Of a stretch of 64,000 bases of DNA, positions 8,120 through 31,122 are shown piece after piece (position 1 is the first letter of the stretch; each line of letters starts with the position of its first letter). Made by a program: the position numbers and the translations under genes. The notes under the pieces are model-generated. The model did no database searches, was not told the origin of the DNA, and saw only the letters and a program-made list of their open reading frames with translations. The DNA comes from Sphingomonas sp. URHD0057 (GTDB lineage: Bacteria; Pseudomonadota; Alphaproteobacteria; Sphingomonadales; Sphingomonadaceae), in assembly GCF_000620665.1 (NCBI RefSeq), contig NZ_JIAU01000005.1, positions 301,501-365,500 of the forward strand. The letters run 5' to 3'.

Positions 8120-8212
8120 GGAGACGTGGGTGAGTGGCTGAAACCAGCGGTTTGCTAAACCGCCGTAGGGGGTATTCCCCTACCGAGGGTTCGAATCCCT
8201 CCGTCTCCGCCA
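8120..8212 (+). tRNA. tRNA-Ser (anticodon GCT)
   Basis: A 93-base class II tRNA. The acceptor GGAGACG pairs with CGTCTCC; the anticodon stem GCGGT/ACCGC encloses loop TTGCTAA (anticodon GCT). The long variable arm is TAGGGGGTATTCCCCTA, the T arm is GAGGGTTCGAATCCCTC and CCA is encoded. It reads AGC and AGU codons. Confidence 0.97.
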
Positions 8213-8223: not shown

Positions 8224-9810
8224 TCAGGACCCTTCGCGGGTGAACAGCAGGTCCTGATAATCCCAGCTGAAGTCGGCGGTGGGGGACACCGGCTTCATCG
8301 TTACCCGGTCGACCTTGCCGTCCGCGTCGATCGAGAAACTCACATAAGCGGGCTCGACCCATTTCAGCGCCGGGTTCGTCTTGAACGTGTCGTATTGATA
8401 GTGGGTCAGCGGCCCCTGCATGCCGGTCGAGTGCGGGAAGTCGATGGTCAGGCCCGCGCCGGCCTGGCGCACCTTGATCGTGCCGTACCACGGGTCAGCA
8501 TAGTCGCCGACGTAGCGATCGAGCGTAAGCGAAGGGCCGACGCCCGCGGGCTTCGCTGCGGCCGCCTGCACCTGTTTCGCGGCCTGGTTGAGCTTGTCGA
8601 TCTTGTAGTCATGCCACTTCTCCGGCCACTGGTACCGTGGAAGTCCGAGATAGTGGTCGAGAAGCTCGTACTCGAGGCCGCGGATGATCTCCCCATCTTC
8701 GCTATTCGCCGCGATGTAGATCCCGACGTTCTTGTCCGGAATCAGCGTCACGGTCGCTTGCGAACCGAGCACGGCACCATCGTGCGCCACCAAATGCGCG
8801 CCGCGATAGTCGGTCCGGTCCCAGCCCAAAGCGTAGAGGTTGTAGTGCGGTTGGGCCGCCGCGAACTCCGCCGGATAATGCGGGATCGGCTGGATCACCA
8901 ACGGCGTCCACATCACGTCGGACTGTTCCTCGGAGAACAGCCGCTTGTCGCTGCCCGGGATCTTGCCGCGGCCGAGCTGGGTCAGCAGCCATTTGCTCAT
9001 GTCGTTGGCGCTGATGGCGAGGCCGCCGGCCGGCGCGGAGTTCTGCGCGATGGTCGCATTTTCATCGAGCGGCGTCTGCGTGCCGAGCCCGACGATCGCC
9101 CCGCCGAAGCGGCTGTGCGGCCGGGCATGGTTGGGGTTCGCCTGATAATCCGCGTCGGTGTCGGTCGAATTCCTCATTCCGAGCGGAGCGAAGACGCGGT
9201 TCCGGACATATTGCTCCCAGGTCTCGCCGCTGACCTCCTCGATCAACTGGCCCGCCGCCATGTAGAGGATGTTGTCGTAGGCATAATCGCTGCGGAAGCT
9301 GGTTGCCGGCTTCAAATGGCGAATGCGCCGCACCGTCTCCTTGCGCGACAAGGTGCTGTTCGGAAGGAACAGCAGGTCGCCCTGGCCGAGACCCAATCCG
9401 CTGCGGTGGACGAGGAGGTCGCGGATCGTCATCTCGCGCGTCACCCACGGGTCCCACATGCGGAAATCGGGCATGTGATCGATGACCTTGTCGTCCCATT
9501 TGAGCTTGCCGGCATCGACCAGGGTCGCGAGCGCCGCGTTGGTGAAGGCCTTGCCGGTCGATCCGGTGAAGAAGATCGTGTCGGCGTCCACCGGCTGGTT
9601 GGTCGAGATGTCGCGGACGCCCCAGCCGTGGGCGAGCGTGACTTGGCCGTCCTCCACGATCGCGATCGTCACTCCGGGGACGCCGAACTGCTTTCGCAGC
9701 TGCTCGACACGCTGCTCGAACCCGGCCGGCGGCGCGGCCGCCGCGACCGAGGCGAGCAAGGACGCGGCAAGGGCAATGGACGCGCGGGCGAAACCGGCGG
9801 GTTTCAGCAT
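8224..9810 (-). CDS. Exported SxxK serine hydrolase (beta-lactamase/D-aminopeptidase superfamily)
   Basis: Serine hydrolase of 528 residues with a signal peptide (residues 1-26, ...SVAAAAPPA). The penicillin-binding-protein fold motifs are present: SxxK at 84-87 (STGK), YxN at 178-180 (YDN) and HDG near 345. A C-terminal beta domain of about 120 residues follows, as in many DUF3471-type esterases or D-aminopeptidases. It is likely periplasmic and cuts an amide or ester, possibly at a D-residue. It is the last gene of the minus-strand operon reaching back to 20906, four bases behind the YkvI-like gene. The substrate is unknown; beta-lactam resistance is not implied. Confidence 0.85.
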   Translation of the reverse strand: MLKPAGFARASIALAASLLASVAAAAPPAGFEQRVEQLRKQFGVPGVTIAIVEDGQVTLAHGWGVRDISTNQPVDADTIFFTGSTGKAFTNAALATLVDAGKLKWDDKVIDHMPDFRMWDPWVTREMTIRDLLVHRSGLGLGQGDLLFLPNSTLSRKETVRRIRHLKPATSFRSDYAYDNILYMAAGQLIEEVSGETWEQYVRNRVFAPLGMRNSTDTDADYQANPNHARPHSRFGGAIVGLGTQTPLDENATIAQNSAPAGGLAISANDMSKWLLTQLGRGKIPGSDKRLFSEEQSDVMWTPLVIQPIPHYPAEFAAAQPHYNLYALGWDRTDYRGAHLVAHDGAVLGSQATVTLIPDKNVGIYIAANSEDGEIIRGLEYELLDHYLGLPRYQWPEKWHDYKIDKLNQAAKQVQAAAAKPAGVGPSLTLDRYVGDYADPWYGTIKVRQAGAGLTIDFPHSTGMQGPLTHYQYDTFKTNPALKWVEPAYVSFSIDADGKVDRVTMKPVSPTADFSWDYQDLLFTREGS

Positions 9811-9813
9811 GAT

Positions 9814-10980
9814 TTACTCCTGGGCTTCGGCAACGCCGTGGGGACGCGGGGTCGGGGCGTCGGGATCGGGAGCGGTTCCAAGCACTTCCTTGGTGTGTGA
9901 GAGCTGCCAGATCCCAATCGTGACCAGCGGAAGGATAAAGGTGGCAAGTAGCGCGTAAGCCAGCGCGCGATACCCCGTGGCGATCAGCGCGACGAGGCCG
10001 AAGCGGCTCGCGAGGAACATGCAGCCGACGAGCAGGACGAGCGCGATGGCGAGGCGTGCACGACGCGACAAAGGCTCGCCGCGGCGAGCGAGGACGACAT
10101 GGTTGATCCGCTCGTTGATGGCGTGGACCGAGCTGGTCCCGCTCTCGAGCAGAGCCGAGAAAATCATCAGCTGGAACAACAGGTGGAAGGCTGGAATGCC
10201 GATGCGCTGAAGCATGAAGTCCGCGGGCAGGGTCGCGCTTTGGACCTCGGGATAGAAGGCCACCATCGGAATGAAGAAGAGAAGCGCAGGGATCATCGTG
10301 AGTGGGCCCGCGACGACGCCCGCAACGACCGCATCGCGATCGCTGACCAGGTGCCGCAACACGGGGAGGATCACGGCCGCGCCGATAATGTTGTAGCCGA
10401 AATAAGTGAGCCCGCTCAGCGCCCACCCGGACGTTTGCGGATGTGTCGCGAAGCCGCCCGGGACGCGCGCGCCGAATTTCCACAAGGCGAGGACAATGAA
10501 CACCGCGTAGATCGCGTACAGATAGTAGGAGACGTCGCGGAACAGCCGCTCGACGGCCTTGTTGCCGAACGCGACGACGCCCGCGATGCATGCCGCGAGG
10601 ACGACCGTCCCGGCCCACACCGGCGCACCGAAGACGGCATTGCCGATCGCTCCGGCCGCCGCGCCGTAAACCGCGAGGATCAGCACCACGAAAAGGGCAT
10701 AGGCGAGCTCGAACAAATGCCAGGCGGGGCCCATCAGCCGCTTGAAGAAGCTCCGGTAATCGAAGGTCTGGAAGCGCCGCGCGAGGACGAAGGTGAGCGC
10801 GCAGAAGATGCTGAACAGCAAGGTTGCGAACAGGATCGCATAGAGCCCGCCCCAAGGCCCGTTTGAGAGGAAGAACTCGGCAAGCTCGCGGCCGGTCGCG
10901 TAGCCGCCTCCGATCACAACGGCTTTGACGCCGAGGCCGGGGAGGAGGAGGCGATTGAACCAGCTCGGCCGCTCGCTCAT
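9814..10980 (-). CDS. YkvI-like polytopic membrane transporter
   Basis: Integral membrane protein of 388 residues with about ten hydrophobic helices. The N-terminal LLLPGLGVKAVVIGGGYATGREL and the helix FGYNIIGAAVILPVLRHL match the COG3949 (YkvI) group, distant relatives of amino-acid/sodium symporters. The substrate is not known for this group. It sits between two exported SxxK hydrolases in the left operon and overlaps the upstream gene by ATGA (10977-10980), which suggests it moves a hydrolysis product, perhaps an amino acid (inference). Confidence 0.75.
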   Translation of the reverse strand: MSERPSWFNRLLLPGLGVKAVVIGGGYATGRELAEFFLSNGPWGGLYAILFATLLFSIFCALTFVLARRFQTFDYRSFFKRLMGPAWHLFELAYALFVVLILAVYGAAAGAIGNAVFGAPVWAGTVVLAACIAGVVAFGNKAVERLFRDVSYYLYAIYAVFIVLALWKFGARVPGGFATHPQTSGWALSGLTYFGYNIIGAAVILPVLRHLVSDRDAVVAGVVAGPLTMIPALLFFIPMVAFYPEVQSATLPADFMLQRIGIPAFHLLFQLMIFSALLESGTSSVHAINERINHVVLARRGEPLSRRARLAIALVLLVGCMFLASRFGLVALIATGYRALAYALLATFILPLVTIGIWQLSHTKEVLGTAPDPDAPTPRPHGVAEAQE

Positions 10981-11957
10981 CGCGCGGCCCCGAACAGGAA
11001 ATAATCGTATAGCGCCCGGGCGACGTCGGCGATCACTCGCTCGCGTACCTCGAACGGCTGTCGGCTTTCCTTGATGAAGATCGCCATGATCACTTTGCCG
11101 CCGTCGCCCGGCAGCGTGACCAGCCCGACATTGTTGACCGAGCCGCCGATCGTCCCGGTCTTCTCGGCGACCACGGTGTCCTCAGGCAGCCGGGCGCGAA
11201 TGCGCGCCTTGCCCGTCGTGTTGCGCTCCATGATCCCGGTCAGGAGCTTGGTGCTCGCAGAGCTCAGCGCCTTGCCGGTAAAGATGCGCTGGAGGAGCGT
11301 GCCCATGGCGAGTGGCGTCGCAGTATCCTTGGGATCCTTGTCGAACTTGGGATCGGGCTTGTCGCCGATGTCTTCGAGCTTGGGATTCGCCTTCAAGCCT
11401 GCTTCGAGCGATTCGGGGAACGACGGGCCCGGCGGCAGGCCGTAAAAGTCGCGGATGAGACCCGCGGTGTCGCGATCGACACGCAGGCCTTCGATGCCCT
11501 GGGAGCGCACCCATGCCGTGACTGCGGTGGGGCCGCCGGCGAGCTTGGTCAGTACATCGGTCGCGGTGTTGTCGCTGACCGTCAGCATCAACTCGAGCAG
11601 GTTCCTGACCGACACGCTGACGCCGTCGTAGCGGAAGGTCGAGGCAAGTCCTTCGGACTCGACCATCATCGCGTGCGGAACCGGCACGAGTTGGTCGAGC
11701 GAGAGTTTTCCACCGTCGACATCCGCCAGAATTTTTCCCGCGACCGCGACCTTGAAAGTGCTCGCCATGGGGAAGCCCTGGTCGGCGTTGACGAGCACGC
11801 GCGGCCCCGCGCCATCGAGCCGCCAGGCGGCAATGCCGACAACGCCTTCGGCGGGCTTCGCTAGATGCGAAAGCTCCGACTGCAGCGCCTGCGTCGGCTC
11901 GGCCGCCAGGGCCGGTGACGAGAAACCGATCATCAGCGCGAGGATCAACGTACGCAT
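10977..11957 (-). CDS. Exported class A beta-lactamase-like serine hydrolase
   Basis: Protein of 326 residues with a clear signal peptide (1-19, ...SSPALAAE). Class A-like motifs are present: SxxK at 66-69 (STFK), SDN at 128-130 and KTG at 266-268, plus the DTATPLAM helix start that follows the omega loop in class A enzymes. The omega loop itself (about residues 172-211) is longer than usual and rich in Lys/Asp/Pro, and I cannot find the ExxLN motif that supplies the deacylating glutamate. It may therefore be a peptidase or esterase rather than a true beta-lactamase. It overlaps both neighbours and belongs to the left operon. Confidence 0.83.
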   Translation of the reverse strand: MRTLILALMIGFSSPALAAEPTQALQSELSHLAKPAEGVVGIAAWRLDGAGPRVLVNADQGFPMASTFKVAVAGKILADVDGGKLSLDQLVPVPHAMMVESEGLASTFRYDGVSVSVRNLLELMLTVSDNTATDVLTKLAGGPTAVTAWVRSQGIEGLRVDRDTAGLIRDFYGLPPGPSFPESLEAGLKANPKLEDIGDKPDPKFDKDPKDTATPLAMGTLLQRIFTGKALSSASTKLLTGIMERNTTGKARIRARLPEDTVVAEKTGTIGGSVNNVGLVTLPGDGGKVIMAIFIKESRQPFEVRERVIADVARALYDYFLFGAAR

Positions 11958-12994
11958 GAATCGACCAGCCTTTCGAACTCGCTTCCGCCGCGCATCGGGT
12001 CGGCGACAGGCACGCCTAAGCGCAAGCTTTCCTGCTCCATCAGCTGGCGCGCTTCGTCCGCGTCGAGCGAAGCCGTATTAAAGCTGACGCCGCCGAGGCG
12101 GATCGCAGGGTTGGTGCGCGAACCAAGTATGATCGTCAGGTCGATGATCTCCTCGACGCTCGGTACCGCGAACGCCTCATCGCCGAGCAGGCGCTCCCGG
12201 CTCGGGTCGTGGCAGACGACGAAGACGTCCGCCTGGCTTCCCTGGAGCAGCGAGAGGGAGACGCCGGCAAAAGCCGGGTGGAGCAGCGAGCCTTGGCCCT
12301 CGATCACGTCCCAATGATCGTCCGCCGCTTCCGGACTGAGCATTTCAGCGGCGCCGGCGGCGAAGTCCGCTACCACCGCGTCCAGCGGGATGCCGCGCCC
12401 GGCGATCATGATCCCGGTCTGCCCGGTTGCGCGAAAGTCGGAGTCGATGCCGCGCTTACGAAGCGCGCGGGCGATCGCGAGCGCCGTATATTTCTTGCCC
12501 AGGGCGCAATCCGTCCCGACCGTCAGCAGCCGGTTGCCGCCGCGCTTCAATCCGGTTGCGATCGGGATTCGGGCGGGCGGCCGGCGAACGTCGATCAGCT
12601 GTCGCCCCGACTTGGCCGCGGCATCGCGAAGCGCGGGCAAGTCGCCCAACCGCGCGTGCATCCCGCTGATGATGTCGAGGCCCGCTTCCAGCGCTTCGAC
12701 AAGGGCCGCAAGCCAAGCGTCGGCAATGAACCCGCCGGAGTTTGCGACACCGATCACCAGCGCTTGCGCGCCGGCGGCCTTGGCTTCCCGGGGCGACAGG
12801 CGCGGGAGGCCTGTCGTCACCGTCGCGCTAGGCAACGCAAACTCCCCGACGCACTTGTCCCCCGCCCAGTCGCGAAGCCCGAACGCGGTCTTGGCGTAAC
12901 CGGGTTCGGTCGTATCCCCCAAGAACAGGAGGTAGGGCTGGGGAAGGTCCAGCTCGTCAGATGCTGGCGAGCCCAGGCTCCGCACGCTTGCCAC
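11945..12994 (-). CDS. dgcN: DUF1611 protein, DgcN-type D-glutamate N-acetyltransferase
   Basis: Protein of 349 residues covering both DUF1611 domains. The C-terminal half has a P-loop-like turn GTDCALGKKYT (160-170). From established knowledge, DUF1611 proteins named DgcN acetylate D-glutamate with acetyl-CoA, and their product is racemized by DgcA; a DgcA-type gene lies at 17899-18915 in the same operon. The GTG start is supported by a near-perfect AGGAGGT site four bases upstream. The stop overlaps the next gene by 13 bases. In described loci dgcN and dgcA are commonly close together; here receptor, dipeptidase and transporter genes separate them. Confidence 0.8.
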   Translation of the reverse strand: MASVRSLGSPASDELDLPQPYLLFLGDTTEPGYAKTAFGLRDWAGDKCVGEFALPSATVTTGLPRLSPREAKAAGAQALVIGVANSGGFIADAWLAALVEALEAGLDIISGMHARLGDLPALRDAAAKSGRQLIDVRRPPARIPIATGLKRGGNRLLTVGTDCALGKKYTALAIARALRKRGIDSDFRATGQTGIMIAGRGIPLDAVVADFAAGAAEMLSPEAADDHWDVIEGQGSLLHPAFAGVSLSLLQGSQADVFVVCHDPSRERLLGDEAFAVPSVEEIIDLTIILGSRTNPAIRLGGVSFNTASLDADEARQLMEQESLRLGVPVADPMRGGSEFERLVDSCVR

Positions 12995-13027
12995 TACCTC
13001 CTGCTTCCTGCTTGCACTTGACTGATC

Positions 13028-15412
13028 CTAACGATCGAAATTGGCCGTGAGAGTGAGGCCGATGGTCCGCGGACGGATGACGGAAACCGCGGCGGCGTTG
13101 TTCGGGAAGCTGGGCGAATTGATCGGCGGAATGAAGTCGGGGAACGCGAAGGCGTCTGTGATCCCGCGCTTGTCGAACAGGTTGTGCGCGAACGCTTCAA
13201 TCCTGAACCGGTCAATGGTCACACCGGCGCGAAGATCGACCTCGGTATAGCTCGGAATCTTGACCAGCGAGCCGTCTTCACGCCGCTCGCCGAACTCCGT
13301 GGTCCGCTTCCCGACATAGTTGGCGCTCGCGCCCACGAAGCCCTCGGTGCCGCCTCCCAGCGAGAATTCGTAGTCGGCGTGGAGAGCACCGCTCCACTTC
13401 GGCACCCACGGAAGCGGGTCGCCGCGTAATCCGCCCGTGTCCTCCGGCGTGTCTTCCTTGAGCTTGCCGTTCGTATATGCGCCGTTGGTAGTCAGGGTGA
13501 GCCCGGGCGCTGGCCGCAGTGCGCCCGAAAACTCGAGACCGTTGACCCGTGCCTTGCCGCCGTTGCCGTTGATGCCTGTGTCGTTGACGCGGGCGAAGAT
13601 CTGAATGTTCCTCCAGTCGATGTGGTAGAGCGCCAATTCCGCCGACCACAGCCGGCCATCGGGGGCTTCAGCCTTGATCCCCGCCTCCCAGTTGGTGAGG
13701 CGATCGGCGTCATAGGTCGCCGGCACGCCGGGCGGACTTCCTACAGGTATGACGTTCGGGCCGCCGGGGCGATAGCCGCTGGCCACCCGTGCATAGACCG
13801 ACGCGTGATCGCTCAGCTCATATCGCGGCGCTACCGAGTAAGTGAACACCGTCTCGGAAGAGTGAAGGTCGTTGCCCTCGGCGTTGCCGAGCAGGTCGGA
13901 ATCGATCAGCAGGTCCGCCCGCTGCTTGTTGTGGGCGAGCCGGCCGCCGACCGTCACGTCGAAGCGCGGGGTCGCGTGCCAGGTCGCGTTCGCGAAGCCG
14001 GCGGTCTCGGTATATTTCGAATGAAGGAAGATGTTCGCGATCTGCTTCACGTCGGGCGCGATGATGTCCGTGCCGAATTCCGTCGCGAAGTAGTTTTGCG
14101 GATCGATGGCCGACTTCTCATGCGTGTAGAAAGCGCCGATCAGCCATTCGAAATGCTCGTTGTTGGGCGACGATAAACGAAATTCCTGCGTGAACTTGTC
14201 CGTCGCCGTCTGTTGGAAGAGCTCGAGGCCAAGCGGGCGCGTAACCGGCGCATCGACGACCAGCGGATTGCCGATCGCCGCCAGGAAGCTGATCGTTGCC
14301 GCGAGGTCCTGAATGAACGACGCGTCGGTTTCCAACTTCTCGGAGAACGTGGAATAGGCGGTCGATGAGAAGAGGTTGGCGAAACCGAGATCCCAGTCGA
14401 GCGTCCCGTTGTAGACCCGATATTTGATCCGCGTCGGCTCGGGCTGATAGCGTGACTGGACGTAGTCGCCGTAAAGCGGTTTCAAGGTATCCGGATCGGC
14501 TTCGAACGCGTCACTTGCCCCGGAATTCAAGTTCTGCGCGAATGCTGTCAGACGGACCGAAACCGCCTCGGTCGGACTCAACAGCAGCGAGGCGCGGCCG
14601 CCGAAGCTTTTCTTGTCGTTGATGTCGTCCTTGACGAGGGTGCGACCGAGTTCTCCGCCGAGGAAGTTCGCGATCGGGTTGTTGCCGATCGAATCGATGT
14701 ATCCGTGATCCTTACGGTAGAATCCGTTGATGCGAATGGCGGCCTTGTCGCCGAGCGGAGCGTTCACGACCGCGGCACCGTTGTATCCCATTCCACCGTG
14801 CGCGGTGGTCTCGATGCCAGTCTGGGCGCGCGCCTCGAACCGGCCCAGTTTGGGCGCAGTGGTGATGTACCGCAGAACGCCGCCAAACGAGCTTGCACCG
14901 TACAAAGTGCCCTGCGGGCCGCGGAGGACCTCGATGCGATTGAGGTCGAACGGATCGAAGTCGCCCGAAAGAATGGCGCCGTTCGCTAGTCCGGTGCTCG
15001 ATCCGAATGGCACATCGTCCATGAATATGGCGACGGTCGAGGCAACTCCTCCGGTGTTCGCGCCGCGCAACGTGATGCGCGTCACGCCGGCGGTGCTTCC
15101 ATTGATGCTGAATCCCGGGACGAGCGAGAGATAGTCCTGGAAATTGGTTGCCTGATGCCGCTCCAGTGTATCTCCGCCGATGACCGTCACCGAAGAGGGA
15201 ACCTCGAGTAGCACCTGTGCGCGCTTCTGCGCGGTGACGATGATGCCCTGCGAATTGTCATCCGTGACCCTCTGGTTGGCGGGCGTCGCGTTGGTCGCTT
15301 CGCTGACCGCCGTCGCCGGCGACGACGGAGCGTCCTGCGCATAGGCCGGCGTGCAGACGGCGAGACCCGCCGCGGCGGATGCCATCAGCTGCGTTTTCGT
15401 TCCCACTAGCAT
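13028..15412 (-). CDS. TonB-dependent outer membrane receptor
   Basis: Outer membrane receptor of about 794 residues. A signal peptide (...AVCTPAYAQ) is followed by a TonB-box-like region (GIIVTAQKR at about 55-63), the plug (VIEVLRGPQGTLYGASSFGG-like core, read here as IEVLRGPQGTLYG) and a 22-strand barrel ending in NFDR with a terminal aromatic-Arg pattern. The ligand is not evident. Its place between DgcN and a dipeptidase suggests uptake of peptides or a peptide-like compound. ATGs at 15430, 15418 and 15412 are all in frame; 15412 has AAGGGGAG at the best spacing. Confidence 0.9.
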   Translation of the reverse strand: MLVGTKTQLMASAAAGLAVCTPAYAQDAPSSPATAVSEATNATPANQRVTDDNSQGIIVTAQKRAQVLLEVPSSVTVIGGDTLERHQATNFQDYLSLVPGFSINGSTAGVTRITLRGANTGGVASTVAIFMDDVPFGSSTGLANGAILSGDFDPFDLNRIEVLRGPQGTLYGASSFGGVLRYITTAPKLGRFEARAQTGIETTAHGGMGYNGAAVVNAPLGDKAAIRINGFYRKDHGYIDSIGNNPIANFLGGELGRTLVKDDINDKKSFGGRASLLLSPTEAVSVRLTAFAQNLNSGASDAFEADPDTLKPLYGDYVQSRYQPEPTRIKYRVYNGTLDWDLGFANLFSSTAYSTFSEKLETDASFIQDLAATISFLAAIGNPLVVDAPVTRPLGLELFQQTATDKFTQEFRLSSPNNEHFEWLIGAFYTHEKSAIDPQNYFATEFGTDIIAPDVKQIANIFLHSKYTETAGFANATWHATPRFDVTVGGRLAHNKQRADLLIDSDLLGNAEGNDLHSSETVFTYSVAPRYELSDHASVYARVASGYRPGGPNVIPVGSPPGVPATYDADRLTNWEAGIKAEAPDGRLWSAELALYHIDWRNIQIFARVNDTGINGNGGKARVNGLEFSGALRPAPGLTLTTNGAYTNGKLKEDTPEDTGGLRGDPLPWVPKWSGALHADYEFSLGGGTEGFVGASANYVGKRTTEFGERREDGSLVKIPSYTEVDLRAGVTIDRFRIEAFAHNLFDKRGITDAFAFPDFIPPINSPSFPNNAAAVSVIRPRTIGLTLTANFDR

Positions 15413-15447
15413 TCCCATTCTCCCCTTCATTTCGCGCCCATCGAGCG

Positions 15448-21033: not shown

Positions 21034-21723
21034 GTGAGCGGGCATCCGACCCTCGGGCGGATCCTGCGCGAGCTTCGCGCCAACCGCGGGTGGACGCTGA
21101 AAGAGATGAGTGAACGGGCGGGAATTCCGGTCTCGACGCTGTCGAAGGTCGAGCATGACCGGCTTACCCTGACCTACGACAAACTGCTCCAGCTCAGCCA
21201 AAAGCTGAATATTCGCATGTCCGAATTATTCGCAGAAAGCGAAGCGGCGGAGGAAAGCGTCACCGCGCGGCGGAGCATCGGCAGGATCGACGATTCGGTG
21301 CGCGTGACGACGCCCAACTACGATTATTATTATTTGTGCACAGAGCTTCGGCGGAAGCGGATGATTCCCGTGCTCACCCGCATCCGCGCGAAATCACTGA
21401 GCGAATTCGGCGACCTCGTGCGGCATTCGGGAGAGGAATATATCCACGTCCTCGAAGGCGCGATCATCGTCCACAGCGAATTCTACGACCCGGTGACGCT
21501 CGATGCGGGCGAGGGCATCTACATCGATTCGAACATGGGCCACGCGTACGTCGCGGCGGAAGGTTGCGACGAGGCACTCGTGCTCGGCGTCTGCTCGAGC
21601 GCGGACGAAGGGCTGATGGACTCGCTCATGACCATTCACGAGCCCACGCTTGCTCATGATCGCACGGAAATCCCCGCCCCTGCTTCATTTCGCGTACGGC
21701 GCTTGAGACGAACGGCCGCCTAG
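21034..21723 (+). CDS. XRE-family regulator with C-terminal cupin sensor domain
   Basis: Transcription factor of 229 residues. An N-terminal helix-turn-helix (about residues 8-62, TLKEMSERAGIPVSTLSKVE) is joined to a cupin domain (about 105-190, GEEYIHVLEGAIIVHSEFYDPVTLDAGEGIYIDS), the usual binding domain for a small effector in this class. It is the first gene of the right operon and faces the left operon, so it is the natural candidate to control both. The start is GTG, with AGGA nine bases upstream. The ligand is unknown; a product of the encoded pathway is the simplest guess. Confidence 0.88.
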   Translation: MSGHPTLGRILRELRANRGWTLKEMSERAGIPVSTLSKVEHDRLTLTYDKLLQLSQKLNIRMSELFAESEAAEESVTARRSIGRIDDSVRVTTPNYDYYYLCTELRRKRMIPVLTRIRAKSLSEFGDLVRHSGEEYIHVLEGAIIVHSEFYDPVTLDAGEGIYIDSNMGHAYVAAEGCDEALVLGVCSSADEGLMDSLMTIHEPTLAHDRTEIPAPASFRVRRLRRTAA

Positions 21724-21755
21724 CTCAAGCACGCCACGGACGTTAGGGTGGCGCA

Positions 21756-23087: not shown

Positions 23088-25150
23088 GCCGCGATCCGCG
23101 TTACGACATCCTGTTCGAGCCGGTGCGGATCGGTCCTGTCACCGCGCGCAACCGCTTCTACCAGGTGCCGCATTGCACGGGGATCGGCTGGACCCAGCCG
23201 GAGACGCTGGCCCGGCTGCGCGGGATCAAGGCCGAAGGCGGCTGGGCGGTCGTCGCTACCGAAGAGACCGAGATCCACCCGAGTGCCGACTGCGAGCCGT
23301 TCCACGAGGGGCGGCTGTGGGACGACCGCGACATCCCCGCGCTCGCCATGACCGCGGATGCCATCCACGAACATGGCGCGCTCGCGGCGATCGAGATCAT
23401 GCACCATGGCGGCTCGGTCGCGAATTGGGGGACGCGGCTCGCGCCGATGGCACCGTCGCACCGGCCGATCATCTACAATTATCCCGTTCAGGCGCGGGCG
23501 ATGGACAAGCAGGACATCCGCGACCTTCGCCGCTGGCACCGCGACGCCGCGCTACGCTCGAAGAAAGCGGGCTTCGACATCGTCTATATTTATGCGACTC
23601 ACGATCTTTCGATCGCCCAGCAGTTCCTCGAGCGGCGCAAGAACGACCGCACCGACGAATATGGCGGCAGCCTCGAGAATCGCGCGCGGCTGCTTCGCGA
23701 ATTGATCGAGGACACTAAGGAGGCCGTCGGCGACACCTGCGCCGTCGCGGTCCGCTTCTGCGCCGACGAGCTGATGGGCGATGCCGGCCTGACCCACGAC
23801 GGCGAAGCGCGCGACGTGATCGGGATGCTCGCCGAATTGCCCGACCTGTGGGACGTCAACATCTCCAATTGGCCCAACGACAGCCAGACGTCGCGCTTCG
23901 CGAAGGAGGGGTTCCAGGAGGAATATACGCGCTTCGTCAAGCAGCTGACGACCAAGCCGGTAGTCGGCGTCGGCCGCTTCACCTCGCCCGATACGATGGT
24001 GTCGCAGATCAAGCGCGGCGTGCTCGATTTCATCGGAGCGGCGCGACCCTCGATCGCCGACCCGTTCCTGCCCAAGAAGATCGAGGAAGGTCGGATCGAC
24101 GACATCCGCGAGTGCATCGGCTGCAACATCTGCGTGTCGAGCGATTACACCTCGACCAACCTGCGCTGCACCCAGAACCCGACGATGGGCGAGGAGTGGC
24201 GCCGCGGCTGGCATCCCGAAATCATCCCGCCGAAGAAGTCGGACGGATCGGTGCTGGTGGTCGGTGCTGGGCCCGCAGGACTGGAAGCCGCGCTCGCAGC
24301 GGCCCGGCGTGGGTTTGAGGTGCACCTTGCCGAGGCGACGTCGGAGCTCGGCGGCCGGGTTACCCGCGAAAGCAAGCTCCCCGGCCTCGCCGAATGGGCC
24401 CGGGTGCGCGACTGGCGCGTCGACCAGCTCGAGCGCATGGACAACGTCTCGATCTATCGCGACAGCGCGCTCGAAGCCGAGCACGTGCTGGAGTTCGGGG
24501 CGCGCCACGTCGCGATTGCGACGGGGTCGGTGTGGCGGCGCGACGGTGTCGGCCGCGATTCCGGCTTTCCGATCTTCGACGGCCCACTCGTCTATACCCC
24601 CGACGACATCATGTCCGGCCGGGACCCCGAAGGGGGGCCGGTGATCATCTGGGACGACGACCATTATTACATGGGCGGGGTCATCGCCGAGCTGTGCCGC
24701 TACGCCGGCCACGAAGTCGTGTTGGTGACGACCGCCGCCACGGTCTCGGCATGGACGGTCAACACGCTCGAGGCCTTGCCCATCGCCAAGCGCATGGCGC
24801 GCATGGGTGTCGAGGTGGTTCCGTACACCAGCGTGTCCGGTTTCGAGGGCGGTTCGGCGACGCTCACCAGCGTTCTCACGGGTGAAACAACGGATCGCCC
24901 GGCCGCGGCACTCGTCACCGTCACCGGACGCCTTCCCATCGACGGATTGTTCGAAGATCTGCGCGACCGATGGGCCGAGGCAGGCATTGCGAGCGTCACC
25001 CGGATCGGCGACTGCTGGGCCCCGAGCACGATCCAGCAGGCCGTTTACAGCGGTCACAAATGGGCGCGGGAGCTCGATGAAGCGCCGGAAATCCTCATCC
25101 CACGGGAATTGCCGATGATCGAATCCGGTCGCCTGAAGATGACGGAATGA
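23084..25150 (+). CDS. Trimethylamine-dehydrogenase-like flavoprotein (FMN, [4Fe-4S], ADP/FAD domain)
   Basis: Protein of 688 residues. The N-terminal Old-Yellow-Enzyme barrel has NRFYQVPHC with C31 at the position that carries covalent 6-S-cysteinyl-FMN in trimethylamine dehydrogenase. Four cysteines C344, C347, C350 and C362 (CIGCNICV...RCTQN) bind a [4Fe-4S] cluster, and the nucleotide-binding domain has GAGPAG at 394-399. The family (tri/dimethylamine and histamine dehydrogenases, N-methyl-amino-acid demethylases) oxidizes C-N bonds and passes electrons to ETF; etfAB lie at 58833-60505. Substrate uncertain, probably a secondary or tertiary amine such as an N-methyl amino acid. Overlaps both neighbours by ATGA. 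Confidence 0.87.
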   Translation: MSRDPRYDILFEPVRIGPVTARNRFYQVPHCTGIGWTQPETLARLRGIKAEGGWAVVATEETEIHPSADCEPFHEGRLWDDRDIPALAMTADAIHEHGALAAIEIMHHGGSVANWGTRLAPMAPSHRPIIYNYPVQARAMDKQDIRDLRRWHRDAALRSKKAGFDIVYIYATHDLSIAQQFLERRKNDRTDEYGGSLENRARLLRELIEDTKEAVGDTCAVAVRFCADELMGDAGLTHDGEARDVIGMLAELPDLWDVNISNWPNDSQTSRFAKEGFQEEYTRFVKQLTTKPVVGVGRFTSPDTMVSQIKRGVLDFIGAARPSIADPFLPKKIEEGRIDDIRECIGCNICVSSDYTSTNLRCTQNPTMGEEWRRGWHPEIIPPKKSDGSVLVVGAGPAGLEAALAAARRGFEVHLAEATSELGGRVTRESKLPGLAEWARVRDWRVDQLERMDNVSIYRDSALEAEHVLEFGARHVAIATGSVWRRDGVGRDSGFPIFDGPLVYTPDDIMSGRDPEGGPVIIWDDDHYYMGGVIAELCRYAGHEVVLVTTAATVSAWTVNTLEALPIAKRMARMGVEVVPYTSVSGFEGGSATLTSVLTGETTDRPAAALVTVTGRLPIDGLFEDLRDRWAEAGIASVTRIGDCWAPSTIQQAVYSGHKWARELDEAPEILIPRELPMIESGRLKMTE

Positions 25151-26322
25151 GAGTGCTCGCTCTGCTTCTTGCGCTGGCAGCGAGTCAGGCTGGTGCACGC
25201 GCCCGCGATCTTGGCGTTCCGTTCGAGGGGAAGCCGGGGCCGCTGAATGCGATCTCCGATGTGCCGGGCGTCGAGGTCGGCCAAAAGACGCTGATCGAGG
25301 GATCGAACGTTCGGACGGGCGTCACCGTGATCTTTCCGCGTGGCCATGCGAATCCCAAGCCCGTGTACGGCGGCTTTTTCGACCTCAATGGCAACGGCGA
25401 GATGACCGGGCGGGCATATCTGGAGGATTTCGGGATCGTCCAGGGCCCGATCGGCATCAGCGACACCAATGCGATCGGCCAGGTTTATGCGGGTACCCAG
25501 ATATGGTCGTCAAAGACGTTTGGCGTGGCGACCTGGCCGGTCGTGGCCGAGACCTGGAGCGGCTACCTGAGCGACATCGAAGGCTTTCATGTCACCCCTG
25601 ACACGGCGACGTCCGCGCTCGACGCCGCCAAACCGGGTGCCGTCGAGGAGGGCAATGTCGGCGGCGGCACGGGCATGGTCTGCTTCGGCTTCAAGGGCGG
25701 GATCGGCACCGCTTCGCGCGTCGTCTCGGCCGGCGGGGCCAGCTATACGGTCGGCGTGCTCGTCCAATGCAATAGCGGGGATCGCAAAACCTTGCGCATC
25801 GCCGGCGTCCCCGTCGGGCAGGAGTCGGCCGAGCGCTGGCTGCCGTGCTTCGATCCGCAGCTCGGAAAGGGCGATGGCGACCTGAAACCATGCCAGGCCG
25901 ATCCGTCGCAGCAGCATGCGCCACCCGATCAAGGCTCGATCATCATCGTCGTCGGCACCGACGCGCCGTTGATCCCGCTTCAGCTGAACCGCGTCGCCAA
26001 GCGCGCCGCAATGGGCCTTGCTCGTCTCGGCTCCTACGCGGGCAATTCCTCGGGCGACCTGATCGTCACCTTCTCGACGGTGCCGGCCGAAGTGAATGGC
26101 GAAGACCAGAAGCGACCGAGCGCAATCACTCCGGTTGCCAATGCGGCGATCAACCCGATCTTCGAAGCGACCGTGCAGGCGACGGAGGAAGCGGTGGTCA
26201 ACGCCCTCGTCGCCGCCCGGACCATGACGGGCTTCAGGGGCACACGAATCTTCGGCATCCCGCACGACGAATTGCGCGCGATCCTCAAGCGCTACAACCG
26301 GCTGGACGGGGCGGCACGATGA
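25147..26322 (+). CDS. P1 (S58) family aminopeptidase, DmpA-like
   Basis: Protein of 391 residues with a probable signal peptide (1-17). DmpA-family enzymes are self-cleaving N-terminal nucleophile hydrolases. The expected cleavage site, Gly-Ser before a beta strand, is at G263-S264 in QGSIIIVVGTDAPL, matching the position of G249-S250 in DmpA. Other landmarks are NAISDVPGVEVGQ and the GNSSGDLIVTFS segment. Members remove D-amino acids, L-amino acids or beta-amino acids from peptide N-termini. It is thus a second D-peptide-competent enzyme in the locus. Overlaps both neighbours by ATGA. Confidence 0.88.
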   Translation: MRVLALLLALAASQAGARARDLGVPFEGKPGPLNAISDVPGVEVGQKTLIEGSNVRTGVTVIFPRGHANPKPVYGGFFDLNGNGEMTGRAYLEDFGIVQGPIGISDTNAIGQVYAGTQIWSSKTFGVATWPVVAETWSGYLSDIEGFHVTPDTATSALDAAKPGAVEEGNVGGGTGMVCFGFKGGIGTASRVVSAGGASYTVGVLVQCNSGDRKTLRIAGVPVGQESAERWLPCFDPQLGKGDGDLKPCQADPSQQHAPPDQGSIIIVVGTDAPLIPLQLNRVAKRAAMGLARLGSYAGNSSGDLIVTFSTVPAEVNGEDQKRPSAITPVANAAINPIFEATVQATEEAVVNALVAARTMTGFRGTRIFGIPHDELRAILKRYNRLDGAAR

Positions 26323-27893
26323 CCGACCTTCCGCGGGTAACATACTCGAACACCCGCGAGGATTTTTCGGGCGTCCACGCGCATCTCGACGCCATCATTC
26401 CCGAGATCGAGGCAAGGTTGCTCGGCAAATCGCGTCCGGCATTCATCGGCGGCCGCGACCGGAACGAGGGGGTGGTCGTCGAGGCGTACAGCCCGATCGA
26501 CCGCGAAATCCTGCTCGGCGAATTTCCGCAGGCCGGTCCCGCGCTGGTCGACGAAGCGGTGGAGGCGGCGCGCGCGGCATATCCTGCCTGGCGCGAGCTC
26601 GGCTGGCCCCGGCGCACCGCCATCCTCCGCGCAGGCGCGGACGTGCTTGAACAGCGTAAGTGGGACGTGTCGGTCGCGTGTCTGATCGAGGTCGGCAAAT
26701 CGCGGATGGAAGCCGTCGGCGAAGTCGAGGAAGCGATCGACCTCATCCGCCACTATTGCGATGAAATGGAGCGCACCGGCGGCTTCCGCGAAGAACGCGC
26801 CGGCGCCTCGTCGGCCGAGCGTTGTTATGTCGAGCTCAAGCCGTTCGGCGTGTTCGGCGTGATTGCGCCGTTCAATTTCCCGGTTGCCCTGTCGGTCGGG
26901 ATGATCTCGGCGGCGCTGGTCGCGGGAAATAGTGTGGTGTTCAAGCCGAGCGATTCCGCCGGGCTGACCGGACGGCTGGTCGTCGAAGCGCTGGCGGTCG
27001 GCGGACTGCCGGACGGCGTGCTGAACCTGGTCCAGGGCGGGCGCGAGACGGGCGAGGCGATGGTCGGCCACTCACAAATCGACGGTTTCGCTTTCACCGG
27101 CTCCAATGCCGTCGGCATGACCATCATGCGCGCGGCGGCGTCCGCGCAGGCGATGCGGCCGGTGCTGTGCGAAATGGGCGGCAAGAATCCGGCGTTCGTG
27201 ACGGCCAGCGCGGACCTCGCCATTGCCGCAAGCGGAGTTGCGCGTTCGGCGTTCGGCCTTTCGGGGCAGAAGTGCAGCGCCTTGTCCAAAGCCTACGTTG
27301 CGCGAGGCACGACGGACGCTTTCCTCGAGGCGCTAATTGAGGCCACGAACAAGCTCGTCGTCGGCGATCCGCGCCGCGCCGATGTGTTCATGGGCCCGGT
27401 GATCAATGAGGAAGCACTCGACCGCTACACGGGGGCCTGTGCGAAGGCGGCTTCGGGCGGCGACGTCCTCGCCGGCGGCAAGCAGCTCGAAGGGGGGTTG
27501 TTCGACCGCGGCCCTTATGCCGCGCCGACCATCGTCACCGGATTGCCGCACGATCATCCGATCAACCGCGATGAATTGTTCGCGCCGTTCCTGAGCGTGC
27601 TCGAGTTCGACGATCTCGACGATGCGATCGCCGACGCCAACCGCAGCGCCTACGGCCTCACCGCCGGCATCTACACCCAGGACGAGGCCGAATTGGACCG
27701 TTTCCTCGGCACCATCGAAGCCGGCGTCCTCTATGCCAACCGCGCGAGCGGCGCGACGACCGGCGCTTGGCCGGGTTTCCAGACCTTCTGCGGCTGGAAG
27801 GGCTCGGGAACATCGGGCAAAGGCGGGCTCGGCAGCTGGTACGTGCCGCAATTCATGCGCGAACAGAGCCACACCCTGTTCGGGGCGCTGTGA
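26319..27893 (+). CDS. Aldehyde dehydrogenase, P5C-dehydrogenase-like
   Basis: NAD(P)-dependent aldehyde dehydrogenase of 524 residues. Catalytic C319 lies in SGQKCSALSK, a motif resembling that of 1-pyrroline-5-carboxylate dehydrogenases; the general base E285 is in CEMGGKN and the Rossmann asparagine N186 in PFNFP. It probably oxidizes a semialdehyde such as glutamate semialdehyde or a related aminoaldehyde. It fits downstream of the aminotransferase and the amine-oxidizing flavoprotein in the same operon. Starts inside the DmpA-like stop (ATGA) and its stop overlaps the GTG of the next gene. Confidence 0.87.
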   Translation: MTDLPRVTYSNTREDFSGVHAHLDAIIPEIEARLLGKSRPAFIGGRDRNEGVVVEAYSPIDREILLGEFPQAGPALVDEAVEAARAAYPAWRELGWPRRTAILRAGADVLEQRKWDVSVACLIEVGKSRMEAVGEVEEAIDLIRHYCDEMERTGGFREERAGASSAERCYVELKPFGVFGVIAPFNFPVALSVGMISAALVAGNSVVFKPSDSAGLTGRLVVEALAVGGLPDGVLNLVQGGRETGEAMVGHSQIDGFAFTGSNAVGMTIMRAAASAQAMRPVLCEMGGKNPAFVTASADLAIAASGVARSAFGLSGQKCSALSKAYVARGTTDAFLEALIEATNKLVVGDPRRADVFMGPVINEEALDRYTGACAKAASGGDVLAGGKQLEGGLFDRGPYAAPTIVTGLPHDHPINRDELFAPFLSVLEFDDLDDAIADANRSAYGLTAGIYTQDEAELDRFLGTIEAGVLYANRASGATTGAWPGFQTFCGWKGSGTSGKGGLGSWYVPQFMREQSHTLFGAL

Positions 27894-28600
27894 ACAAGCT
27901 CTACGATTCGCCGAAGGCCGCGCTCGACGGCCTGCTGCGCGATGGAATGACCATCATGTCGGGCGGGTTCGGCCTGTCCGGCAATCCGGAAAGCCTGATC
28001 CCGGAGATCCAGGCCTCGGGCGTCAAGCACCTGACCGTCATTTCCAACAATGCCGGCGCCGACGGCTTCGGCCTCTGGCACCTCCTCGAAAGCCGCCAGA
28101 TCCGCAAGATGGTCGCGTCCTACATCGGCGAGAACAAGCTGTTCGAGCAGCAATATCTGTCGGGCGAGCTGGAGCTTGAGCTCAATCCGCAAGGCTCGCT
28201 GGCCGAGCGCATCCGTGCCGGCGGCGCAGGCATTCCGGCCTTCTTCACGCCGACCGGGGCGGGGACAATGGTCGCCGACGGCAAGCCGCAGGAGGAATTC
28301 GAGGGACGGATGTATGTCCGCGAGACGTGGCTCCGCGCCGATCTCGCCATCATCAAGGCGTGGCGCGCGGATGCGACGGGCAACCTCCAGTTCCGCAAGA
28401 CCGCGCGCAACTTCAACCCGATCATGGCAACCGCGAGCGAGGTCACGGTGGTCGAGGCCGAGGAGATCGTCGACGCCGGCGAGATCGACCCCGACTGCGT
28501 CCACACGCCGGGCATCTTCGTGCACCGGATCGTCCGCAGCACGATCAACGAAAAGCGCATCGAATTCCGCACGGTGCGGGCGCGAGACCCGGTCGCATGA
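27890..28600 (+). CDS. CoA-transferase subunit A (AtoD/ScoA type), no partner subunit nearby
   Basis: Alpha subunit of a class I CoA-transferase, 236 residues. Landmarks: MSGGFGLSGNPESLI near the N-terminus, the SNNAG turn, GAGIPAFFTPTGAGT and an acidic C-terminal segment. These enzymes move CoA between succinyl-CoA or acetyl-CoA and a 2- or 3-oxo acid. The catalytic glutamate lies in the beta subunit, which normally follows directly. Here the next gene is a metallohydrolase and no beta subunit occurs anywhere in the window, so activity depends on a partner elsewhere. GTG start within the preceding stop (GTGA). Confidence 0.87.
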   Translation: MNKLYDSPKAALDGLLRDGMTIMSGGFGLSGNPESLIPEIQASGVKHLTVISNNAGADGFGLWHLLESRQIRKMVASYIGENKLFEQQYLSGELELELNPQGSLAERIRAGGAGIPAFFTPTGAGTMVADGKPQEEFEGRMYVRETWLRADLAIIKAWRADATGNLQFRKTARNFNPIMATASEVTVVEAEEIVDAGEIDPDCVHTPGIFVHRIVRSTINEKRIEFRTVRARDPVA

Positions 28601-31122
28601 AGAGGTTTGCGGCCTTTGCTGCGTTGCTGTTCGCGGCGAGCGCGGCGATTGCCGCGGGACGGGAGCCGGTGCTCAAGCAGGTCGACCTGCCGCACAATTA
28701 CTATTGGCGCGAGCTGTACATTCCGCAGCTGACGACCGGCCCGTCGAGCGTGAGCTTCACCCCCGACGGCACGGCGCTGATCTACAGCATGGCGGGGTCG
28801 CTGTGGCGGCAGGCGATCGGCTCTGACGAAGCGACGGAACTGACCCATCCGCGCGGCGCCTACGACTATCAGCCCGATGTTTCCGCCGACGGGAGAAGCG
28901 TCGTCTTCAGCAGCTACAACGGCGACGGGATCGAGCTCTGGCGCCTCGATCTCGGAACCGGCGCCGAGCGTCAGCTGACCTTAGGCAGCGACGTCAATGT
29001 CGAGCCGCGGCTGTCGCCCGATGGCAAACGGATTGCATGGGTTTCGACCCAGGGCACGGGTCACTTCAACCTGTGCATCGCCGACCTCGACGCTGGCGGC
29101 ATCCACAATGCACACGCGCTCCTCGGCGACCGGCAGAGCAAGATCTCGCGCTATTATTATTCGACGTGGGACCATGCGCTGAACCCGTCGTGGACGCCCG
29201 ACGGCAAGCGCATCCTCTACGTCTCCAACCCCGAAGTGGCGTGGGGCACGGGCGACATCTGGTCAGTCGCCGTCGACAATCCGACGGACCGCCGCAAAGT
29301 CTACGGAGAGGAGACCAGCTGGAACGCGCGTCCCGAGACATCGCCCGACGGCAAGCTGGTGCTGTTCGCCAGCTATCACGGGCGGCAGTGGAAGCAGCTG
29401 TGGGTGACGACCCCCGGTGGCGCCGCGCCCTTGCCGCTGAGCTTCGGCGAGTTCGACCGCTGGAACGCGCGCTGGTCCCCCGACGGCAAGCGCATCGCCT
29501 ACGTCGACAACGAGCACGGCAACACCAGACTGATTGTGCAGACTGTGGCGGGCGGGGCAACGATCCCGATCGTCGCCAAGACGCGCCGCTACAGCGTGCC
29601 ACGTGCCCGTTTCACGCTTGACATCCGCGACGAACAAGGCCGGGCGGTCTCGGCGCGGGTGGCGGTGCTTGGCAGCGATCTGCGCGCCGCAGCGCCGGCC
29701 GACGTCTGGATGCACGCCGACGACGGCTTCGACCGCGCGCTGCAGTCGGCCGAAACCCACTATTTCGATTGCGCTTCGACCTGCACCATCGAGGCTCTCG
29801 CGGGCGATACCAAGGTCTGGGTTCAGCGCGGCTTCCGCTATCTGCCGTGGCAGCAGACAGTGAAGCTCGCGGAAGGGGCTGTCACCCTTCCGGTGACGCT
29901 TCAGCTCAACGACCTTCCGCCGTCGTTCGGCAAGTTCACCAGCGCCGACCTTCACGTCCACATGAATTACGGCGGGCATTATCGCAACACGCCGGGGAAC
30001 CTCGCCCGCCAGGCGCGTGCCGAGGATCTCGGGGTGATCTACAACCTCCTCGTCAACAAGGAGGAGCGGGTTCCGGACATCGCTTACTTCCAACCCGATC
30101 CGGACCCCGCCAGCGGCGATGGGGTCACCATCCTGCACAGCCAGGAATACCACACCAGCTATTGGGGTCATCTCGGCTTGCTTGGGCTATCCGACCATTA
30201 TCTGACGCCCGGCTTCGTCGCTTACCAGAACAGCCCGCTCGCCAGCGCCTGGCCCGACAATGGCGCGATCGCTGACCTTGCGCATGCGCAGGGCGCGCTG
30301 GTCGGCTACGTCCACCCATTCGACACCGTTCCCGATCCCGTCAACGACAAGTCGCTCAGCAATGAGCTTCCGGCCGACGTCGCCAACGGCAAGGTCGATT
30401 ATATGGAGATCGTCGGCTTCTCCGATCACAAGTCGACCGCGCAAGTCTGGTACCGCCTGCTCAATCTTGGCTTCCGCATCCCGGCAGGCGCAGGCACCGA
30501 CGCCATGGCCAATTATGCCTCGCCGCGGGGCCCGGTCGGGATGAACCGGGTGTTCCTCGAGACCGGAGGTGATGCCAGCCCGGCGGCGCTCAAGGCAGCG
30601 CTCAAGGCCGGTCGCACCTTCGCCAGCAACGGGCCGCTGCTCGGGCTGGAGCTGGACGGCAAGCATCCCGGCGCCACCATCGCGCGCCCGGCGCCGGGCA
30701 AGATCGCCTACCGCATCGCGCTTCGCTCGCCGGTCGCGGTCGACCATCTCGAGCTGGTGCAGAACGGCAAGGTTGTGAAGGCGTTCGCGCTCGCCGGCGA
30801 CCGCCGCAATTTCGACGCCCGGGGCGAGCTTGACGCCGACACCTCCGGCTGGATCCTGCTGCGGGCATGGAACGACGGCGCCGACCCGCAGGTGCTCGAC
30901 ATCTATCTCTATGCGACGACCAGCCCGGTCTATGTCGAGCTTCCGGGCGGAATGCCGGCCGCTCCCGACGATGCGCACTATTTCATCGCCTGGCTCGACC
31001 GCGTCATTGCCGATGCCGGCGCTCGAAAGGACTTCCGCAGCGCCGGGGAGCGGGACATGGTGCTCGCTTATCTGCGCAAGGCGCGGAATCGCTATGCGAA
31101 CCTAATTGTCGTTCGACGGTAA
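28597..31122 (+). CDS. Exported PD40 beta-propeller fused to CehA/McbA-type PHP metallohydrolase
   Basis: Protein of 841 residues. A signal peptide (1-19, ...AASAAIAAG) leads into a TolB-like propeller with repeated SPDGKR/TPDGKR PD40 motifs (about 45-330), then a linker of beta structure, then a PHP-type hydrolase domain beginning at DLHVHMN (about 449). Metal-ligand-rich segments include HVHMN, HSQEYH, YVHPFD and the C-terminal GAGTDA. CehA and McbA hydrolyse aryl N-methylcarbamates, but most family members are uncharacterised. Last gene of the right operon (ATGA overlap). Its end overlaps the convergent KTSC gene by 21 bases. Confidence 0.8.
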   Translation: MKRFAAFAALLFAASAAIAAGREPVLKQVDLPHNYYWRELYIPQLTTGPSSVSFTPDGTALIYSMAGSLWRQAIGSDEATELTHPRGAYDYQPDVSADGRSVVFSSYNGDGIELWRLDLGTGAERQLTLGSDVNVEPRLSPDGKRIAWVSTQGTGHFNLCIADLDAGGIHNAHALLGDRQSKISRYYYSTWDHALNPSWTPDGKRILYVSNPEVAWGTGDIWSVAVDNPTDRRKVYGEETSWNARPETSPDGKLVLFASYHGRQWKQLWVTTPGGAAPLPLSFGEFDRWNARWSPDGKRIAYVDNEHGNTRLIVQTVAGGATIPIVAKTRRYSVPRARFTLDIRDEQGRAVSARVAVLGSDLRAAAPADVWMHADDGFDRALQSAETHYFDCASTCTIEALAGDTKVWVQRGFRYLPWQQTVKLAEGAVTLPVTLQLNDLPPSFGKFTSADLHVHMNYGGHYRNTPGNLARQARAEDLGVIYNLLVNKEERVPDIAYFQPDPDPASGDGVTILHSQEYHTSYWGHLGLLGLSDHYLTPGFVAYQNSPLASAWPDNGAIADLAHAQGALVGYVHPFDTVPDPVNDKSLSNELPADVANGKVDYMEIVGFSDHKSTAQVWYRLLNLGFRIPAGAGTDAMANYASPRGPVGMNRVFLETGGDASPAALKAALKAGRTFASNGPLLGLELDGKHPGATIARPAPGKIAYRIALRSPVAVDHLELVQNGKVVKAFALAGDRRNFDARGELDADTSGWILLRAWNDGADPQVLDIYLYATTSPVYVELPGGMPAAPDDAHYFIAWLDRVIADAGARKDFRSAGERDMVLAYLRKARNRYANLIVVRR

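Follow-up and report, generated by a model that had tools for sequence, protein, structure and literature searches.

Two catabolic gene modules, probably inherited separately, lie side by side in Sphingomonas sp. URHD0057: a DgcN/DgcA-like, putatively peptide-scavenging cluster and a putative amine-degrading gene block

Introduction

Within dissolved organic nitrogen, D-glutamate and peptide-bound D-residues belong to the fraction that is used slowly, and a DgcN-DgcA pathway for D-glutamate was reportedly described by Yu et al. in 2023 (ISME J 17:537). According to PMC12363236, D-acidic amino acids are racemised by a pathway whose key gene is dgcN, and the conversion of D-glutamate to L-glutamate via DgcN and DgcA is given in both PMC12363236 and PMC10845958 as well as in the names of the NCBIfam models. 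For the aminopeptidases BapA and DmpA, another source reports the synthesis of L-carnosine (beta-alanyl-histidine) by both (PMC9570944). Relatives of all these enzymes are encoded in the locus analyzed in the present study, which lies at positions 8224 to 31122 of a stretch of 64,000 nucleotides, hereafter the window, from Sphingomonas sp. URHD0057 (contig NZ_JIAU01000005.1, positions 301,501 to 365,500 of the forward strand; genome of 2.79 Mb in 11 contigs). A preliminary description had proposed that its sixteen genes form one locus for the uptake and degradation of one class of peptides with D-glutamate and perhaps N-methyl residues.

With the DgcN-DgcA pathway the locus has in common that a DgcN- and a DgcA-like protein are encoded together, and for both proteins the respective models are the best in NCBIfam; unlike that pathway, the two genes are part of a larger peptide-uptake cluster (TonB receptor, SxxK hydrolases, POT transporter, M19 homologue), and their scores stay below the equivalog cut-offs. 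We regard it as rather likely that the locus consists of two separately inherited catabolic modules lying side by side, module L (8224–21723) for D-glutamate-containing peptides and module R (21756–31122) for an amine or an amine-linked amide. Its components are of known kinds and form two modules in an uncommon arrangement; the preliminary observation itself was correct, but over-read as one system.

Results and Discussion

Sixteen open frames form two divergent runs, the left from 8224 to 20939 on the minus strand and the right from 21034 to 31122 on the plus strand, and their families, assigned with Pfam and NCBIfam models at the curated NCBIfam cut-offs, agree with those described before. 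Neighbouring genes mostly overlap or are separated by 3 bases; wider gaps lie between the DgcN-like gene and the receptor gene (33 bp), between the receptor gene (start 15430) and the M19 gene (17 bp) and between the XRE-cupin regulator and the class III aminotransferase (AT; 32 bp). The control region between the runs has the 127 bases previously given for it when counted from the downstream ATG (20906) of the first left gene, and only 94 when counted from the upstream ATG (20939).

The separate conservation of the two modules is seen in the family. The DgcN-like protein was searched against 149 family genomes (E ≤1e-40), 35 of which, including this one, were matched at 56 places; of the 55 in other genomes, 20 were fetched (the 19 top-ranked and one slightly lower, at least 64% identity, in 19 genomes), with about 10 kb on each side of DgcN, except L055 with only 3.6 kb in all. 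A gene was counted as present at no less than 35% identity over at least half of the query. Besides DgcN itself (20 of 20), these loci contain the YkvI-like gene (19), the regulator (18), the SxxK hydrolases SH2 (16) and SH1 (13), DgcA (15), the TonB receptor (12), M19 (10), POT (4) and the class A-like gene (1). By this criterion all 20 loci lacked matches to the six right-run proteins; below it, a class III aminotransferase of 30% identity stands at the edge of L043. The regulator, previously assigned to the right run, is divergent from left genes in 17 of the 20 loci (SH2 in 15 cases, M19 in 2) and therefore belongs with the left run. The left run and its regulator thus represent a conserved DgcN/DgcA-like cluster of the Sphingomonadaceae type, and with DgcN and DgcA as the best models this is in line with the scavenging of D-glutamate peptides earlier proposed for the left run.

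The right run was traced through AT, for which a scan yielded 32 loci; those with at least 53% identity (L011–L020) were followed, the other 22 showing 35–37%. At 78% identity or more, the named genomes were Sphingomonas isolates or bins. In L011, L013 and L020 the genes for AT, flavoprotein, S58 aminopeptidase, aldehyde dehydrogenase, CoA-transferase and CehA-type hydrolase follow each other in this order, with no left-run gene found in the flanks. In all, the fetched flanks of the right block are free of left genes in G158 (L011, L069), G167 (L013, L067), G181 (L020) and G215 (L071), the block of G215 lacking the CoA-transferase. L014 has no S58 gene between flavoprotein and aldehyde dehydrogenase, carries CehA upstream and reaches its contig end after the aldehyde dehydrogenase, and the contig of L012 ends inside S58. 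L015–L019 possess AT without other right-run genes, and L005, from the family genome G011, only the part from AT to aldehyde dehydrogenase, the DgcN match of G011 (54%) being on another contig. Upstream of the block, a divergent M16 peptidase gene was recognized in L013 (Pfam), and L014 and L020 carry homologues of it in the corresponding position; an amino-acid permease gene precedes AT in G157, and a stretch of 21 residues before AT in L011 resembles the C-terminus of this permease (E 0.007). Many genes of G181 (L020, L074) are split by frameshifts, perhaps through sequencing error.

Among 71 genomes of the genus, AT was found in seven (E ≤1e-120), or eight with the G181 copy (L020), whose right run stayed under the threshold because it is frameshifted, and DgcN in 16 (E ≤1e-40), of which G162, G191 and G207 reach only 47–48% identity. 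The right run is the rarer unit of the two. Both were present together in six of the seven AT genomes (Fisher p 3.4e-4) or, with G181, in seven of the eight (p 6e-5), both values uncorrected for kinship; in G196 AT is present and no DgcN was found. An rpoB tree was obtained for 61 of the 71 genomes (six of the other ten had no rpoB match, four only fragments), on which AT changes its state at least seven and DgcN at least ten times. Independent pairs on the starred branches numbered four (1.7 with the association, 0.3 against, 2.0 without difference) and in the reverse direction eight (2.5 with, 0 against, 5.5 without difference), so that the association leans positive on this tree in numbers of pairs that cannot reach significance. 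Co-occurrence was therefore abandoned as proof of function, as it is not significant once the rpoB phylogeny is considered.

In the seven genomes with both modules these adjoin twice (the window genome, G000, and G157), are about 32 kb apart once (G167, measured from DgcN to AT), lie about 0.4 Mb or more apart in three (G181 about 400 kb, G215 about 533 kb, and G158) and are found on separate small contigs in G194. In G158 a partial DgcN locus (L068) is 427 kb away from AT on the same contig, a fuller left cluster (L080) lies on another contig, and the 1.07-Mb contig with AT extends for more than 460 kb on either side of this gene. The two runs, expected in the preliminary description to co-occur in relatives as one conserved locus, are thus apart in four of the six genomes with known distance, which goes largely against one locus for one peptide class, as do the left-cluster loci of the family and the AT of G196.

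One integrated pathway, in which both runs serve a single class of peptides with D-glutamate and beta-amino or N-methyl residues and selection repeatedly joins them, is nevertheless to be weighed, as the modules adjoin in two different ways. In the window the right run starts directly behind the regulator; in G157 it follows SH1 on the same strand, with the permease gene and an amidohydrolase gene (PF07969), the product of which we take to be D-aminoacylase-like, in between. The junctions are thus at opposite ends of the left cluster, and the two genomes belong to different starred sets (rpoB clades). Finding at least two of six genomes with the modules within 3.3 kb has a probability of about 1e-4 under random placement and of 0.009 if a tenfold hot-spot is assumed; the two independent junctions are the strongest indication of a functional link, though no more than suggestive, and the uncorrected co-presence of AT and DgcN points in the same direction. 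Since the two modules are separated in most relatives that carry both and the right-run proteins were not found in the 20 family loci, we nonetheless consider a single integrated system unlikely, with the non-significant association on the rpoB tree as a further argument against it. It seems still somewhat less probable that the modules were joined twice independently to mineralise one hitherto undescribed class of peptides that contain D-glutamate and are capped by a beta-amino acid or an amine, the regulator having captured the second operon in this genome.

Two mobile sets may also have landed near each other in an accessory hot-spot without any functional link, a possibility to which we give appreciable weight, if less than an even chance, and which overlaps with two separately inherited modules, so that the likelihoods of these two are not exclusive. 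The patchy distribution on the rpoB tree fits such a hot-spot, and a tRNA-Ser (gct) gene (8120–8212) ends 11 bases before the last left-run gene. However, no direct (att-like) repeat of the tRNA end was found, and the genes outside the modules differ, by eye, between G000 and G157. A genomic island was not adopted: the tRNA-Ser gene is at the edge, yet the att-like repeat is missing.

The XRE-cupin regulator (21034–21723, plus strand; PF01381/PF07883) resembles PuuR in the order of its domains, but reaches only 44 bits with the PuuR model (cut-off 211), and no putrescine genes were seen around it. In the control region a 39-bp element (20973–21011) with the consensus CTAATTAGGACATAATGATCCTGATTGGAAAATTGTCAA was detected, a putative operator according to motif and promoter scans, which is common to 27 regulator-side intergenic sequences (the window and 26 relatives with XRE). 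Scores over the 27 sequences range from 12.8 to 65.0, with weak ones in L043, L047 and L057. The halves of the consensus form, by eye, an imperfect inverted repeat CCAATnAGG/CCTnATTGG, from which the left half in the window deviates. Because the reverse strand carries a -35 box TTGACA (21011–21006), an 18-base spacer and a -10 box TATGGT (20987–20982), the element coincides in part with a promoter-like site directed leftward. Its 25-base core occurs a single time in the genome at up to three mismatches (reversed control 0). Upstream of AT, a search of 260 bp in the window and in seven relatives did not detect the element (best scores -2.2 to -22.4); control of AT by the regulator through this element was thus rejected, which also speaks against an integrated pathway. 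No terminator-like site was detected in 20850–21850 (shuffles average 1.1). The 32-bp junction between regulator and AT (21724–21755) retains a leader CGGACGTTAG..AATG that is also found before AT in L013, L020 and L071, and module R therefore arrived with its own short leader. Read-through from the regulator into module R, with partial co-transcription, is possible.

The left run begins with SH2 (18915–20939, minus strand as all genes of this run; PF00144), predicted to be exported and to possess a hydrophobic C-terminal part; the C-terminal part was judged by eye, and so was, from the N-termini, the export of this and the other SxxK, S58 and CehA proteins. The DgcA-like protein (17899–18915), a relative of N-acyl-D-glutamate racemases and dipeptide epimerases in the enolase superfamily, has the equivalog NF042940 as best NCBIfam model (373.2 bits, cut-off 400) and does not reach the L-Ala-D/L-Glu epimerase model (238.3 bits, cut-off 343). 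It is followed by a POT-family oligopeptide:H+ symporter (16571–17902; PF00854; TIGR00924 282.8 bits, cut-off 130.2) and by the M19 homologue (15448–16578; PF01244), in which, as in 13 of 13 aligned orthologs, MLAP stands at the HxD position and Gln at the Glu position. We take HxD and Glu to be metal ligands of M19 dipeptidases, and since these are lost, the protein, although an M19 homologue as described before, is not to be regarded as an ordinary dipeptidase; it possibly has a different activity. The TonB-dependent receptor (13028–15430; PF00593/PF07715), with the computed likely start MKGRMGML..., precedes the N-acyltransferase (11945–12994; PF07755/PF17396; DUF1611), which is called DgcN-like here because 439.7 bits with its best model, the equivalog NF041892, fall short of the cut-off of 480. 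Next come a class A beta-lactamase-like SxxK hydrolase (10977–11957; PF13354), a YkvI-like membrane protein (9814–10980), which is a putative transporter, and, as the last gene, SH1 (8224–9810; Beta-lactamase PF00144 and DUF3471), again predicted to be exported. The label YkvI is that of the preliminary description, since Pfam and NCBIfam at E 0.001 gave no match. Receptor, SxxK hydrolases and POT transporter would fit the import of peptides. Amidohydrolase genes (PF07969) adjoin YkvI or SH1 in two genomes of the genus (L065, 12653–14446; L063, 16758–18482) and possibly encode a deacylase step of module L.

The class A-like protein passes the NCBI model for class A beta-lactamases (NF033103, 226 bits, cut-off 200) despite its catabolic setting, from which a locus for defence against beta-lactams by means of the SxxK hydrolases might be deduced. 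We hold this to be highly improbable: the gene is uncommon in the cluster (the single family locus and L077), the other two SxxK proteins are far under the beta-lactamase cut-offs shown, and the remaining genes are of catabolic or transport types. Microcystin-type degradation was considered because the POT and SxxK proteins presumably resemble MlrD and MlrB, and was set aside when no M81 protein was found in the genome by a search that matched no control genome either, so that the absence is unproven. An M81 protein does lie beside a flavoprotein homologue in another family (L146).

Module R starts with AT (21756–23087, plus strand as the following genes; PRK07483 family, NF005685 701.7 bits, cut-off 485). 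The adjacent flavoprotein (23084–25150) was assigned by Pfam, structure comparison and alignment to the histamine/trimethylamine dehydrogenase family. Its earlier designation as trimethylamine-dehydrogenase-like is right for the family; the closest solved structures, however, are histamine dehydrogenases (3k30 and 6de6 with 780 and 774 bits), followed by 6l6j with 750, compared with 524 bits for trimethylamine dehydrogenase (1djn). The match is nearly full-length, and the flavin mononucleotide-binding Cys, the 4Fe-4S Cys residues (CxxCxxC) and the active-site Trp and Asp are kept. Position 61, in contrast, is occupied by Glu here, by Gln in histamine dehydrogenases and by Tyr60 in trimethylamine dehydrogenase; Asp354 aligns with Trp355 of trimethylamine dehydrogenase. 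Gln and Asp at the positions of Tyr60 and Trp355 are, as we assume, the signature of histamine dehydrogenases, of which only Asp is retained here. Among 29 alphaproteobacterial homologues Glu61 occurs in 17 and Asp354 in 24, and the active-site residues were thus dropped as decisive for the substrate.

Homologues of the flavoprotein were present in 43 of 385 genomes of Alphaproteobacteria (E ≤1e-200) and in four of the 149 family genomes (E ≤1e-80), this genome included in both counts. Flanks of 1.5 kb were read at 29 alphaproteobacterial loci and contained no other right-run gene, nor was one detected within 20 kb in the family carriers G056 and G085. Ten neighbours picked by hand comprised OpuAC (twice), MTTB, Rieske, M81, MFS, a luciferase-like protein, a solute-binding protein, an ABC permease and an esterase. 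In four species of one other genus (L145, L146, L147, L149) the homologue seems to have a gene of the M81/MlrC family as neighbour (tested in L146) and additionally, in L145 and L147, one for an MFS transporter (tested in L147). As the neighbours are mixed and the nearest structures are histamine dehydrogenases, both primary-amine oxidation and N-demethylation come into question, and to judge from the sequence the enzyme may perform either; the N-methyl part of the preliminary description is neither backed nor contradicted.

Module R may accordingly be asked to demethylate a methylated, betaine-type amine instead of following a beta-alanyl- or histamine-type amide route, which appears to us possible but doubtful. 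Relatives of the flavoprotein (62–63% identity) lie beside MTTB, OpuAC or Rieske genes in L150, L152, L153 and L154, and the homologue of G056 has genes for a Rieske oxygenase and for an amino-acid permease as neighbours. In contrast, no Rieske oxygenase, methyltransferase or betaine transporter was recognized by Pfam among the sixteen genes, and besides the histamine dehydrogenases as nearest solved enzymes, the S58 protein is nearest to a beta-aminopeptidase.

This S58 aminopeptidase (25147–26322; PF03576 350 bits), predicted to be exported, matches BapA and DmpA over nearly the full length including the Gly-Ser site, but is at similar distance to both. The name DmpA-like used before thus holds for the family, the score being closer to BapA (3n2w, 295.9 bits) than to DmpA (1b65, 274.1 bits) by a gap too small to decide on BapA-type beta-specificity, which stays putative. 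The aldehyde dehydrogenase (26319–27893) is nearest to pyrroline-5-carboxylate (P5C) dehydrogenase and lies below every NCBIfam cut-off shown. The 3-oxoacid CoA-transferase subunit A (27890–28600; likely GTG start; TIGR02429 268.4 bits, cut-off 128.5) has no beta-subunit gene beside it, the only beta-family match of the genome being on another contig (C5), so that alpha and beta genes do not stand together as in a two-subunit enzyme. The last gene encodes a TolB-like propeller fused to a CehA/McbA metallohydrolase (28597–31122; PF07676; NF038032 233.7 bits, cut-off 80), predicted to be exported. About 700 bp past the right run, 31823–34120 passes the model for a bifunctional salicylyl-CoA 5-hydroxylase/oxidoreductase (1276 bits, cut-off 1078).

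Next to the AT homologues of L015–L019 the same conserved gene is adjacent in five of five loci and belongs to the beta-keto acid cleavage (BKACE) family in the two tested (L016, L018); by analogy, the CoA-transferase could take an AT product of the same kind as BKACE does. In L015, L016, L018 and L019 the AT homologue, the BKACE-type gene, an NMT1-like binding protein and a DctM-type permease recur (families tested in L016), possibly as an operon for uptake and cleavage of beta-amino acids. Carcinine or another beta-alanyl-amine was thought of as substrate because of the likeness to histamine dehydrogenase and beta-aminopeptidase and stays a guess; among the listed open-access matches, judged by titles and abstract beginnings, no bacterial catabolic system for such an amine stood out.

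Several points weigh against two separately inherited modules of the functions favoured here. The comparison covers 20 of the 55 DgcN places in other genomes, many of the remaining 35 having 45–60% identity, and the scores of both the DgcN- and the DgcA-like protein are under the equivalog cut-offs. Since S58 is missing in L014 and the CoA-transferase in L071 and L005, these two need not be part of the core of module R. Asp354 does not discriminate between substrates, and MTTB, OpuAC or Rieske neighbours in four of the ten cases picked by hand, three of the four from one family, hint at N-demethylation as much as at primary amines. As the modules adjoin in two ways that are improbable at random, a functional link may moreover be understated.

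Conclusions

For the two separately inherited modules we infer the following course. Module L would scavenge D-glutamate-containing peptides, probably fragments of cell walls: the TonB receptor and the exported SxxK hydrolases would serve to take in and shorten the peptide, its pieces would reach the cytoplasm through POT and the YkvI-like protein, and DgcN would acylate and DgcA racemise D-glutamate, leading toward L-glutamate. The XRE-cupin regulator would control the left run via the conserved element over the leftward promoter. Module R would degrade an amine or an amide of an amine and a beta-amino acid, the parts of which S58 aminopeptidase and CehA-type hydrolase may set free; the flavoprotein would convert the amine to an aldehyde and the aldehyde dehydrogenase the latter to an acid, AT would yield an acid (possibly a 3-oxo acid), and the CoA-transferase could activate it. 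With its own short leader 32 bp behind the regulator, module R may in part be transcribed together with it.

Module L represents a delimited cluster under a switch of its own, which is directly testable for the scavenging of cell-wall peptides, and module R a compact set of enzymes with a substrate worth screening for. Together they provide a case in which two accessory operons can mimic one system within a single genome.

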